A stretch of 64,000 bases of DNA from Clostridiales bacterium COT073_COT-073 (lineage in GTDB: Bacteria; Bacillota; Clostridia; Lachnospirales; Vallitaleaceae), in contig RQYD01000003.1 in assembly GCA_003858485.1 (NCBI GenBank), positions 62,001-126,000 on the forward strand, in the 5' to 3' direction. This document shows, one piece after another, positions 14,598 to 19,581 of this stretch (position 1 is the first letter of the stretch; the number at the start of each line of letters is the position of its first letter). The notes beneath the pieces are model-generated. The model did not search any database. It was given only the letters and a program-made list of their open reading frames with translations, and was not told where the DNA came from. The position numbers were made by a program, and so were the translations under genes.

Positions 14598-14639
14598 GCA
14601 GTCATAAAGGCTGGAACGCAGTAACAGCCTATGATCAGC

Positions 14640-14830
14640 CATTTAATAGTGGCTATAGATGCCGTAAGGCAATGTAACAAAACGAACCTCGACATAAGAG
14701 TTTGAAGCACATGTTTCGTTTTTAGAGAAACGCAAAATGGTGGAAACGCAAGCAATCTTTCAGAGTAAGCTGTAAAAGTATGCGACCCTGAAGTAATGTT
14801 GCCCGGTAAGTTATAAAAGGTGATATTGGT
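14640..14830 (+). repeat. Diverged relative of the 240-bp hairpin element (ffh-rpsP gap)
   Basis: The 314-base gap between ffh and rpsP has no gene. Its central part follows the same order of landmarks as the interior of the 240-bp elements described at 25213 and 48714. GAAGCA is followed by a hairpin (GTTTCG..GAGAAAC here), then GGTG, then CGCAAGC.ATCTT with AGTAAG after a four-base spacer, then GTTGCCC. Individual bases differ widely and the terminal inverted repeats (CTCAACTTTCCC) are absent, so this is either an old eroded copy or a related structured element. Confidence 0.35.
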
Positions 14831-14911
14831 GTGTTTGCCTGCTGCTTAAAGATCATGTGAAAGAAAACTTTCGGGTTTGGATAGAAAAATAGTTTATAGG
14901 AGGTGAAAACA

Positions 14912-15612: not shown

Positions 15613-16266
15613 GTGGCAAGGGATTTTGTATGGCATGAACTATATGATTTAATGGAAGAAGATAATTGCCCGGTCTGTGCTTTGATCGATAAAAGACTGC
15701 ATCAGGCCATGGACCGTTTTTTATTCGATAGTGTTAATGACCGGGGCCTGCGTAAAAAAATTGCCGAAGCGCATGGCTTTTGTAATTTTCATGCACACAG
15801 GCTTAAAGAAATGGGGGACCCGCTGGCGCATGCGATTTTATATACCGATTTTCTCACGCAGTTATCCGCCGAAATGCGGCTGAATAAACCTAAAAAAATG
15901 AATGCCTATTTAGCAAAACAGGGCTGTTTGTTTTGTGAAACTGCCGCTACCGGAGAAAAAAGCTATGTTCCGGTCATGGTCGAAGGCTTTGCCGATGCTG
16001 ATTTTGTTAAAAAATATGAGAGCAGTGGATTGCTGTGTGCAGCGCATCTGACCCAATTTTTGGAAAAATGCAAATGGAAACCAGCCATTGCCAAAAAAAT
16101 AATTGAAATCAATGAAAAAAAATATCAGCATATGATTGCGGTCTTATCGGAGATCAAACGTAAAAATGACTATCAAAACCAGCATGAAGTCTGGACAGAT
16201 GAAGAAAAAAATATGTGGAAAAAAGTGGTGTCGGTGATGAATGATTTAAGCGGCATCCGCAAATAA
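15613..16266 (+). CDS. DUF6062 family cysteine-rich protein
   Basis: This 217-residue cytoplasmic protein belongs to DUF6062, a family common in Lachnospiraceae and relatives with no established function. Two similar cysteine/histidine modules are visible: CPVC (near residue 20) followed by 'EAHGFCNFHAHRL', and CLFC (near residue 104) followed by 'SSGLLCAAHLTQFL'. The paired CxxC...CxxH arrangement suggests two metal or zinc sites, possibly from internal duplication. The start is GTG 15613 with AGGAGG seven bases upstream. It stands alone between the khpA hairpin and the reverse-strand fru remnant. Confidence 0.85.
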   Translation: MARDFVWHELYDLMEEDNCPVCALIDKRLHQAMDRFLFDSVNDRGLRKKIAEAHGFCNFHAHRLKEMGDPLAHAILYTDFLTQLSAEMRLNKPKKMNAYLAKQGCLFCETAATGEKSYVPVMVEGFADADFVKKYESSGLLCAAHLTQFLEKCKWKPAIAKKIIEINEKKYQHMIAVLSEIKRKNDYQNQHEVWTDEEKNMWKKVVSVMNDLSGIRK

Positions 16267-16269
16267 GTG

Positions 16270-16870
16270 CTTTTTAAGAAGTTAGCTGTATTTAATGCAG
16301 GCCTGTCACCAATGCTCATGGCGATATATCCGGCTAAAATCGGAATTAAAAAAGTAAATGCTCCATTTCTACATTTTTATCGGCAGCGACAATAACGCCG
16401 ACTGATCTGGCAATTTCATCGGCAGTCAAAATATTTTTAGCGCCATCACTGCCATTGGTTTCAACCCGGATAGACACGCCCATTTGCGCGGCTTTTTCCT
16501 TTAAGGAATCTTCGGCCATATAGGTATGAGCAATTCCGGTAGGGCAGGCGGTAACAGCGGCGATCATAAAAAAGAGATAGACCGGCTCGTCATCTAATGC
16601 CTGATAATCAACACCATGCGCACTTTTGGCAAATAAAACACAGGCGGTGTTGACCGCTGAAGTCTTAGCATGAGGCATGGCAACGCCACCGCCCAGACCG
16701 GTAGATGTCATTTCTTCCCGATTTAAAATTTCGCGGCGGAATATTTCTTCATTACTAATCATATTTTTGGCTTTTAAATTGGCAATCATTTCATCAATGA
16801 CTTCCCGTTTGGTGGTAGAATGCAAATCCATAATCATAATTTCTTTTTTTAGTAAGTCTGCAATTTTCAT
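16270..16870 (-). pseudogene. fruA: Remnant of fructose PTS transporter FruA (EIIA-EIIB-EIIC), multiply deleted
   Basis: An intact fructose PTS EIIABC protein has about 600 or more residues. Here only fragments remain in order. Residues 1-105 of a 174-codon frame are the first two thirds of an EIIA domain and keep the phosphorylated histidine (GVAMPHAKT, His67). At about base 16556 the frame jumps directly into EIIB (VTACPTGIAHTYMAE, phosphorylated Cys109), with the rest of EIIA and the linker missing. EIIB stops being recognisable at 'VGVIVAADKNVEME', near 16361. In another reading frame, 16364 down to 16270 encodes 'FTFLIPILAGYIAMSIGDRP', a clear EIIC segment. At least two internal deletions are therefore needed. 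The 174-residue mini EIIA-EIIB fusion could still be translated, but both domains are incomplete, so transport is lost. It is the third gene of the fruR-fruK-fruA order. Confidence 0.82.
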
Positions 16871-16914
16871 AGGCTCTCCTTGTTTGGCGGAAAATGTTGG
16901 ATTGGTAAAAATAC

Positions 16915-17829
16915 TTAGTACAAACGGCTAATTCTGACTTCGGGATAAATAGTTTTAATTTCTTCGTGGGTGGCAATATCTTCGCAGAAAGCGGTGGCAG
17001 TACCGGCGGCAACTGCAAACTGAAAACTGCTTAAAGGCGACTGCTCCTGTTTAATGTGGCTGATAAAACCGGCAATCATGGAATCACCGGCACCAACGGA
17101 ATTCACTAATTTTCCGGAAACGGGAGCAGCATAATAAACAGAATTTGTTTCTAAAAAGAGAGCACCTTTTCCTCCCATAGAAACAATCACATATTTTGCG
17201 CCCCATTCCAGACAGCGTTTTCCATAAAGGATCGCTTCTTCTGTGGAGGTGATCTTATGACCGAAGATTTCTCCTAGTTCATCCAGATTGGGCTTAATTA
17301 AAAGCGGCTTTTGGCAGATCGACTGCTGAAGAACATCACCGGTGGTATCAATTACAAAATCAACTTTTTTTTGCCGGCATAAATCAATCATTTGCCGGAT
17401 AATATCACTGTCAGCACCAGGGACACTGCTGCCGGATATAATCAAAGTATCGCCGGCTTTAAGCTGCTCCAATTTATTAAGGAAAAGAACTTGTTCTGTT
17501 TTGGAGATATAAGGACCCTGACCATTGATTTCGCTTTCCAGATTACTTTTTAATTTAACATTGATACGACTGTTTTGACTGACATTGACAAAATCGTGTT
17601 GTAGCTGGTTTTGATCGAACCATTGCCGGATATAATCACCGGTAAAACCACCTAAAAAGCCCATTGCAATATTTTCGGTGCCGATATTGGAGAGAAGTTT
17701 AGACACCATAATGCCTTTGCCGCCAACATTGATGTAATCTTCTGTTGAGCGATTTAATTCGCCTGCTTTAAAATCATTGACATGAATAATATAATCAATA
17801 GAAGGATTGAGAGTTATAGTATAAATCAT
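16915..17829 (-). CDS. fruK: 1-phosphofructokinase
   Basis: FruK phosphorylates fructose-1-phosphate to fructose-1,6-bisphosphate after PTS uptake of fructose. The 304-residue PfkB-family kinase starts MIYTITLNPSIDYIIHVNDF and shows the first PfkB signature region 'GGKGIMVSKLLSNIG'. It also shows 'IKPNLDELGEIFG' and the second signature 'VNSVGAGDSMIAGFI' with the catalytic aspartate. ATG 17829 is preceded on its strand by AAAGGTGG; the longer frame to 17865 runs into the promoter. The gene is intact, although its partner fruA 44 bases downstream is broken, so fructose-1-phosphate must come from another transporter if FruK is still used. Confidence 0.94.
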   Translation of the reverse strand: MIYTITLNPSIDYIIHVNDFKAGELNRSTEDYINVGGKGIMVSKLLSNIGTENIAMGFLGGFTGDYIRQWFDQNQLQHDFVNVSQNSRINVKLKSNLESEINGQGPYISKTEQVLFLNKLEQLKAGDTLIISGSSVPGADSDIIRQMIDLCRQKKVDFVIDTTGDVLQQSICQKPLLIKPNLDELGEIFGHKITSTEEAILYGKRCLEWGAKYVIVSMGGKGALFLETNSVYYAAPVSGKLVNSVGAGDSMIAGFISHIKQEQSPLSSFQFAVAAGTATAFCEDIATHEEIKTIYPEVRISRLY

Positions 17830-17853
17830 AGCGACCACCTTTCTTTTTTTTAT

Positions 17854-17909
17854 ATCATAACACAATTTTCTATCAAAATCAACTGCTTTCTTTCAAAAAC
17901 TATCAAAAA
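17854..17909 (-). promoter_or_regulatory. fruK promoter with repeated FruR-like operator half-sites
   Basis: Read on the reverse strand, TTGATT (17882-17877) and TATGAT (17859-17854) are separated by exactly 17 bases. Overlapping and upstream of the -35 box are three copies of a TTGAWAG-type heptamer (reverse strand, near 17908, 17896 and 17876), the spacing and sequence style of DeoR-family operators. The DeoR regulator encoded at 18221-18973 is the likely binder, with fructose-1-phosphate as the expected signal. Confidence 0.7.
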
Positions 17910-18147
17910 TTATCGGGCATACATTATGATGCTGATAGTTTCTGCCAATAAAACTCTGATATTATGTATTAGTTGGACTTGAGGATTATGATTTTGTCAG
18001 GGAATGAATTTTGCCATTTGTCGGAGGATATAGGCTCAGCTGGTACTCCGGCAACTAAGAGTTGATCCGGTGTACATTTTAGAAAAGCAGAGAAAGGGAG
18101 AAAACACAGCACTATATCAGAGAGTGTTCCGGTTGTGCGAAAATACA

Positions 18148-18193
18148 ATAAAAAAGACAGAAACCTGCTTCATGAAAGATAGAACAGGTTTCC
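18148..18193 (-). terminator. Terminator downstream of the DeoR regulator gene
   Basis: GAAACCTG at 18160-18167 pairs with CAGGTTTC at 18185-18192, and on the reverse strand a T run (complement of 18150-18155) follows. It separates the regulator from fruK, which has its own promoter. The rest of 17910-18147 shows no gene. Confidence 0.75.
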
Positions 18194-18220
18194 GCCCTGA
18201 ATGAAAGATAATGAACGATT

Positions 18221-18973
18221 TTATGGAGCATAAAGAATTGTAGTTTGTTGTATAATTTCCTCTTCAAGAGCTTCTTTTTGGACATTGGTAATGATAGTAA
18301 CATCAGCCAAATCACAAATTTTAGCAAAAGAAATACTTCCAAATTTAGAGACATCAGCTACCAAATAGGACTGAACAGAGCGACGGATGGCATGGCTTTT
18401 CAAAATGGCCTCACTGACATCCGGGGTAGTTGCAGCAGAGTGAGCGCTGATTCCATTGGCACCAATAAAGGCTTTACTAAAACGGAATTGGTCTAAGCTA
18501 ACCAGAGCTGCTTCGCCAATGATTGTTTTGGTTAAAGGCTTGATCTTTCCGGCTAAAATATAGGAAGGAATATTGTTTTCAATCAGGCGTTCCGCATTGT
18601 ATAGTCCATTGGTCACAACAATAATATTCATCCCTTTTAAAAAAGGAATGATCTCTGAAGTGGTGGTGCCGGAATCCAAATAGATAAAATCACCGTCCTG
18701 GATCAGAGAAGCGGCTAAACGGCCAATTTTCTGCTTTGCCACCATTTGCTGCTTGCTACGTTCGGGAATGGTATAATCATAGGCAAAGGGCAGACCGGTG
18801 CTGACTGCGCCGCCATGTACCCGCTTTAAAAGTCCTTTTTTTTCTAATTCGTCCAGATCACGACGAACAGTAGAAACACTGGTATTTAAAGCAGAAATCA
18901 AATCCTTTAATTTGACAGTATGGTATCGGGCAATGGCATCTAATATATATTGATGTCTTTCTTCGGTAAGCAT
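18221..18973 (-). CDS. DeoR-family transcriptional regulator (FruR-like)
   Basis: This 250-residue protein is a DeoR/GlpR-type repressor. The N-terminal winged helix-turn-helix reads 'MLTEERHQYILDAIARYHTV' then 'TSVSTVRRDLDELEKKGLLK' and 'RVHGGAV'. The C-terminal sugar-phosphate-sensing domain (DeoRC, about residues 75-230) has 'DFIYLDSGTTTSEIIPFL' and 'IVVTNGLYNAERL', with the ribose-phosphate isomerase-like fold. Position upstream of fruK and a broken fruA makes FruR the obvious identity. Unlike the classic fruRKA arrangement it is separated from fruK by a terminator and a 391-base gap with a dedicated promoter. Confidence 0.92.
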   Translation of the reverse strand: MLTEERHQYILDAIARYHTVKLKDLISALNTSVSTVRRDLDELEKKGLLKRVHGGAVSTGLPFAYDYTIPERSKQQMVAKQKIGRLAASLIQDGDFIYLDSGTTTSEIIPFLKGMNIIVVTNGLYNAERLIENNIPSYILAGKIKPLTKTIIGEAALVSLDQFRFSKAFIGANGISAHSAATTPDVSEAILKSHAIRRSVQSYLVADVSKFGSISFAKICDLADVTIITNVQKEALEEEIIQQTTILYAP

Positions 18974-19011
18974 ATTTATAATTCCTTATGTCGGGCAAAC
19001 TGCCTCATATA

Positions 19012-19581
19012 TTACTGCTGTGGAGTGGTTGGATTAGCCGGATTATCCGTCGGTTGATTTGGCTGTCCACCAAAATTTTGCGGTTGACCCTGGTAATTGG
19101 CAGGCTGCTGTGGTTGGTTAAAATTTTGATTATATTGATTTTGATCAAAGCCTGGTTGGGCCTGGGCATAACCTTGATTATATGCCTGATTTGGATCATA
19201 GTACTGATTTTGCTGACCATAAGCATAATTTTGAGCTTGCTGCTGCATATTTTTTTGAGCATTTCCGGCTTCTTTTTTTAGTTCATTCATAGTATTGACA
19301 ATGCCGGTTAATTCCTGATCAGGATAAGCCAGTTTATAAGTATGCTCATATAGCCGGAACAAAACCAGCGCCAGTTCAAAAATAACACGTAAAATGAATG
19401 GAACGGTCAAAAAAGAAACCAGGGCTGTAAAAGATGAGGTCATACCAAATACGCTAAAGCTGATCAAGCCTGCGATCATTTGCCAAAAGTAGCGAATTAA
19501 GAATAAAACAGTTAAAGTCGGATATAAGATTTTAATTAATGCCGGTGTAATAAGAGTTTCAAAATTTAAAAATTTTTTCAT
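19012..19581 (-). CDS. DUF4282 membrane protein with Gln/Asn/Pro/Tyr-rich tail
   Basis: The first about 95 residues hold two hydrophobic segments ('PTLTVLFLIRYFWQMIAGLI' and 'ALVSFLTVPFILRVIFELAL') and the 'LVLFRLYEH' motif typical of DUF4282, a small membrane protein family of unknown role. From about residue 110 to 189 the protein changes to low complexity, with repeated YGQQNQYYDPNQAYNQ, 'NQPQQPANYQGQPQ' and a final 'PTDNPANPTTPQQ'. That tail is probably disordered and surface- or cytoplasm-exposed. The start has GAGGAGG upstream on its strand. It lies close to the DeoR gene on the same strand, but there is no sign of a shared function. Confidence 0.85.
   Translation of the reverse strand: MKKFLNFETLITPALIKILYPTLTVLFLIRYFWQMIAGLISFSVFGMTSSFTALVSFLTVPFILRVIFELALVLFRLYEHTYKLAYPDQELTGIVNTMNELKKEAGNAQKNMQQQAQNYAYGQQNQYYDPNQAYNQGYAQAQPGFDQNQYNQNFNQPQQPANYQGQPQNFGGQPNQPTDNPANPTTPQQ

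Follow-up and report, generated by a model that had tools for sequence, protein, structure and literature searches.

An open EIIA-EIIB frame left by deletions in fruA of a Clostridiales bacterium: very probably the remnant of a recently inactivated fructose permease gene

Does a short open frame that keeps both phosphorylation residues of a fructose permease encode a new regulatory protein, or is it what deletions happened to leave of fruA? The question arises from a locus within the window, by which we mean the whole stretch of 64,000 nucleotides analysed from Clostridiales bacterium COT-073. A preliminary description had proposed that a 174-codon frame joins residues 1-105 of EIIA, with His67, directly to EIIB, with Cys109, and that it is followed by a scrap of EIIC in a different frame. 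Domain profiles and tblastn blocks confirm the fusion, and the scrap does follow, in the -1 frame at about 16293-16367 (Table 1). Based on our data we consider it very probable that the window fruA is a recently inactivated gene of a fructose EIIABC permease, lying in a fruR-fruK-fruA operon of the Peptostreptococcus type.

Table 1. Features of the fru locus and of its convergent neighbour, in window coordinates.
Feature	Position	Strand	Evidence
DUF6062 gene, intact, convergent to the fruA remnant	15613..16266	+	PF19538; full-length copies in the two sister species (80% and 74%)
EIIC scrap, L031 residues 346-370, -1 frame relative to the mini-frame, outside its translation	16293..16367	-	tblastn 88-92% to five Peptostreptococcus FruA
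174-codon ATG mini-frame fusing the EIIA and EIIB remnants; stop directly past the second deletion junction	16346..16870	-	open reading frame
EIIB remnant, L031 residues 174-244 (mini-frame Cys109), C-terminal part of the domain absent	16355..16567	-	tblastn 75% to L031; TIGR00829 profile 2-68 of 85; 2r4q residues 5-73 of 106
EIIA remnant, FruA residues 1-105 (His67), C-terminal part of the domain absent	16556..16870	-	tblastn 73% to L031; PF00359 profile 2-104 of 144
fruK, 1-phosphofructokinase, full length, 304 aa	16915..17829	-	TIGR03828 331.9 bits vs cut-off 292
Candidate fruK promoter TTGATT-17-TATGAT among GATAGAAA/GAAAGAAA-like repeats	17854..17882	-	same arrangement in L031 and L032
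fruR, full-length regulator of the DeoR family, 250 aa	18221..18973	-	PF08220 and PF00455

The extent of the loss was read from tblastn searches of the window with 16 FruA/EIIA proteins, drawn from 28 loci in named genomes. Three collinear fruA blocks were found with 15 of the 16 queries, and the sixteenth, the product of a stand-alone EIIA gene (L053), gave one block. With our main reference, the 629-aa FruA of Peptostreptococcus porci (L031), the blocks cover residues 1-105 (73%, 5e-45), 174-244 (75%, 4e-28) and 346-370 (88%, 1e-8), all far above chance, so that about 428 of the 629 residues are gone. As three collinear blocks remain, the last of them out of frame and cut near the end of the DUF6062 gene, a minimum of three deletions is required. 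The EIIA-EIIB frame has stayed open because the first deletion is in frame, and the mini-frame keeps its start codon and a plausible ribosome-binding site. The EIIC scrap stops about 26 bases short of where the convergent DUF6062 gene ends, and that gene end is therefore the limit of the third deletion. Two points go beyond the earlier account: the remainder of EIIC, nearly as far as the DUF6062 end, was lost in this deletion, and both retained domains are truncated.

The truncation is evident in the domain profiles. PTS_EIIA_2 of Pfam matches mini-frame residues 6-108 at profile positions 2-104 of 144 (E 1.3e-24) and PTS_IIB matches residues 105-167 (E 4.7e-12), while among the NCBIfam models the FRU profile TIGR00829 matches residues 105-171 at positions 2-68 of 85 with 90.8 bits, above its cut-off of 76.85, and TIGR00848 scores the mini-protein at 102.9 bits, slightly below its cut-off of 103.5. 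Thus neither the EIIA nor the EIIB domain is complete, as it would be in a functional FruA, nor is there a complete EIIC membrane domain, its sole remainder being the out-of-frame residues 346-370 of L031. His67 and Cys109 are each the same in all 16 rows of the alignment, and the loops around them are kept. The first deletion, however, takes L031 His113, a residue shared by all 15 intact rows, which corresponds to the second active-site histidine of EIIAMtl.

Inside the retained blocks there is not a single stop or frameshift, that is, fruA has suffered deletions without point-mutational decay. Judged on nine homologues, the two sides of the junctions share in-register runs of 2-4 bases at junction 1 and 2-6 bases at junction 2, where GAAATGG of the window matches both sides by eye. 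These short matches are consistent with deletion by slippage, though they are no proof of it. A possible fourth remnant beyond the EIIC scrap, the mid-EIIC-like 'NTANFLKS', was rejected, as local alignment gave 14-21 with the best places scattered, which is chance level.

The rest of the operon is in a different condition. The window has the operon context fruR-fruK-fruA with the gene order of Peptostreptococcus, and in leave-one-out comparisons, which count departures from columns that do not vary among the other rows, fruK has 0 of 54 and fruR 0 of 35; signs of decay are absent from both. The claim that fruK and fruR are intact accordingly holds, with fruK above the TIGR03828 cut-off and fruR a complete DeoR-type regulator. 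The "good promoter" said to be kept fares less evenly: the pattern alone is no better than shuffled sequence and not significant (14 sites vs 11.8 +/- 2.8), yet TTGATT-17-TATAAT with GATAGAAA/GAAAGAAA-like repeats also stands upstream of fruK in the Peptostreptococcus loci L031 and L032. The repeats are likely to be the FruR operator.

Where did the operon come from? Among the named loci the closest are those of Peptostreptococcus, at 55-58% for FruR (five loci) and 57-62% for FruK, and the same is true of the FruA blocks, for which identity to the Peptostreptococcus type is 68-78% in EIIA and EIIB and 88-92% in the EIIC scrap. In a FruK tree of 29 rows, from which L070 (both strands stop-free) and L076 (a long row) were left out, the window and the sister species G002 are sisters (100/99) inside a Peptostreptococcus clade (100/100) and apart from the 7 other rows of the family that were included; 17 family genomes of other genera had a match, and these rows come from 7 of them. 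In both sister species a PadR-like gene, so labelled by eye, and its neighbour adjoin the DUF6062 gene at the place that the fru operon occupies in the window (16267-19012). A tblastn search of the window at 1e-3 did not find this pair. Beyond the fru operon, the window and G002 have in common a DUF4282-like gene, again labelled by eye. Horizontal gain of the operon into the site beside DUF6062 is probably the simplest account of these arrangements; a plasmid search with the operon returned nothing.

Since the mini-frame was found in no other genome examined, dN/dS was replaced by a leave-one-out test of conservation and a neutral bound on age; dN/dS would also have been unsuitable because about one residue in four differs even in the nearest homologues, a distance at which saturation of synonymous sites is to be expected. 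When the window row was compared with the columns invariant in the 15 other rows, it deviated at 0 of 19 columns in EIIA, 1 of 22 in EIIB and 0 of 8 in the untranslated EIIC scrap. As translated and untranslated remnants are preserved alike, the deletions should be young, and the open frame needs no selection; the preservation of the remnants, with no excess of replacements in either kind, thus points to recency and not to selection. The scrap is a small control, whose 8 columns alone bound the age only at 0.18 substitutions per site. For the translated pieces, with at most one change allowed, neutral ages of more than about 0.06 substitutions per site can be rejected, and the bound in use is 0.056, which allows one change and fits the 1 of 41 of the leave-one-out test. 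A tighter bound of 0.035 for zero deviations was discarded as circular, its 39-column list having been taken from an alignment that included the window row.

Based on these observations we propose the following course of events. The genus would have gained the fru operon horizontally, and at least three deletions would then have taken out residues of about 106-173, 245-345 and 371 to the end of fruA. The first may have preserved the frame by chance and so left the 174-codon EIIA-EIIB frame, the second would have shifted the frame and introduced a stop, and the third would have cut EIIC away near the end of DUF6062. As EIIC is lost, no permease is left. The mini-protein, if it is made at all, has neither domain whole and would most likely be unstable and inert. 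That fruK and fruR are still intact could mean either that the loss is young or that FruK is useful without FruA, the latter being suggested by G002, which keeps a solo fruK. This gene is full length and lies at a different site (L100:2515-3438, on contig C37 of G002) in an assembly that is 89% complete; it is 66% identical to the window fruK, and no fruA or fruR remnant was found beside it on the 12 kb examined. This case suggests that fruK may outlive fruA in the genus.

The locus has what is expected of a pseudogene, namely disabling lesions, three deletions of which one shifts the frame, and no intact copy in the draft assembly. In this respect it resembles the bacterial pseudogenes ascribed to failed horizontal transfer (Genome Biol 2004, PMC522871), with which it has in common a probably foreign gene, disabling lesions and no intact copy, and from which it differs in having deletions only, the retained blocks being free of accumulated stops and frameshifts. 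Compared with the Peptostreptococcus-type FruA (EIIABC) itself, the domain order, the gene order and the active-site His and Cys are alike, whereas the window version lacks the membrane domain along with most of the protein and has its EIIC remainder out of frame. Several features do count against decay. Three deletions with no internal stops or frameshifts make a tidy pattern for a gene in ordinary decay. The genome encodes HPr and EI, the His67 and Cys109 loops are kept, and so are the start codon, the ribosome-binding site and an in-frame first junction. The early decay of the operon suggested in the preliminary description is supported for fruA, with its deletions, its out-of-frame scrap, no intact copy found and a mini-frame that is unconserved in the relatives examined; nothing of the kind is seen in fruK and fruR.

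A tidy set of blocks in a draft of 166 contigs might also reflect an error of assembly or consensus, in which a true locus with an intact fruA was collapsed. As this would predict, point decay is absent from the retained blocks, and yet the locus lies deep within a contig of 142,760 bases, and the two junctions that can be judged share so few bases that they should be too short for misjoining by a k-mer assembler. Moreover, the missing parts are on no other contig by protein search and by search for PTS_EIIC, and the same searches of the 166-contig draft found no intact or orthologous fruA elsewhere in the genome. We regard such an error as unlikely. The PTS_EIIC search gave 8 matches in this genome, none with internal stops, so other permeases are present. 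Apart from its own frame, the mini-protein matches just two genes of this genome, at 41% and 25%, which belong to a distant fructose-like PTS with separate subunits on contig C123. There (L099:4772-7014) the EIIA, EIIC and EIIB genes lie near sugar-kinase-like, aldolase-like and dehydrogenase-like genes, the kinase and aldolase labels being given by eye.

The alternative that gives the open frame a purpose is that the 174-residue product was kept to act as a soluble regulatory relay, in which phosphate would pass from HPr~P to His67 and on to Cys109 and the phosphorylation state would signal to a partner. Regulatory roles are held by PtsN-type EIIA proteins and by the EIIB and EIIA domains of PRD regulators. 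Like PtsN, the window EIIA is a soluble EIIA-like domain with a phosphorylatable His and a distant match to the structures 1a6j and 2a0j; unlike it, it stops at residue 114 of the 163 of 1a6j, and unlike PRD regulators the mini-protein has no PRD or DNA-binding part. Its EIIB ends at residue 73 of the 106 of the fructose EIIB 2r4q. HPr and EI are encoded close together on contig C2 of the genome (G000:C2), with a further HPr-family gene on C134, and hence a putative phosphorylation of His67 may occur; the frame is open, the two residues and their loops are intact, and so are fruK and its promoter region. It is the kept His and Cys that speak for a possible relay. Against it, both domains break off early, EIIA near position 104 of its 144-position profile and EIIB at 68 of 85, the invariant His113 is deleted, and the untranslated EIIC scrap is preserved just as well. 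AlphaFold2 gave the mini-protein a mean pLDDT of 71.8 vs 89.0 for residues 1-280 of intact L031, a contrast that is supporting evidence only because the control has a different sequence and alignment. Confidence is still fair for the EIIA part (averages per block mostly 69-95), and values below 50 fall at the Cys loop (105-118) and the C-terminus (163-174).

The relatives examined, sampled at one genome per species, do not share the fusion. No match to the mini-protein was obtained at 1e-10 in either sister species, G001 or G002, so that the "small His-Cys protein" is kept in neither. Across the family 14 of 22 genomes match at this threshold, with frames that, other than the window's own, are EIIA-, EIIB- or EIIBC-sized; a row of G012 that extends across the two parts of the query proved to be a separate EIIA, complete at 150 aa, and one EIIA match, in G005, sits in an open frame of 413 aa. 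No second mini-fusion was found among these 22 genomes. At 1e-25 the mini-protein is matched by 4 of 392 genomes of the order, its own included, and the other three have frames of 641-647 aa. With incomplete domains, the invariant EIIA His lost and an untranslated scrap in equally good order, the proposal that the protein was kept as a regulatory phosphate relay is very improbable. Nor do we give more than slight credence to a trimmed His-Cys protein acting as a soluble phosphate acceptor that would report PTS activity to the fru promoter or drain phosphate from HPr.

We favor, then, a recently inactivated permease gene, caught early in its loss when deletions have already occurred and substitutions not yet. 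An open in-frame remnant that carries both catalytic residues is by itself no proof of a new function, and here the untranslated scrap serves as the control. The reach of the finding past its own genome is small.

Two minor observations concern the sequence itself. The spacer between ffh and rpsP (window 14598-14902, 305 bases) had no Rfam match and gave no sign of a conserved RNA by Rfam, folding or alignment with G002; its fold z-score is -1.34, and about 33 bases beside rpsP align with G002. The mini-frame ends in CTT TTT TAA (window 16346-16367), where a -1 slip on the run of T would reach the frame of the EIIC scrap; this slip-prone run is probably a coincidence of natural codons at the junction.
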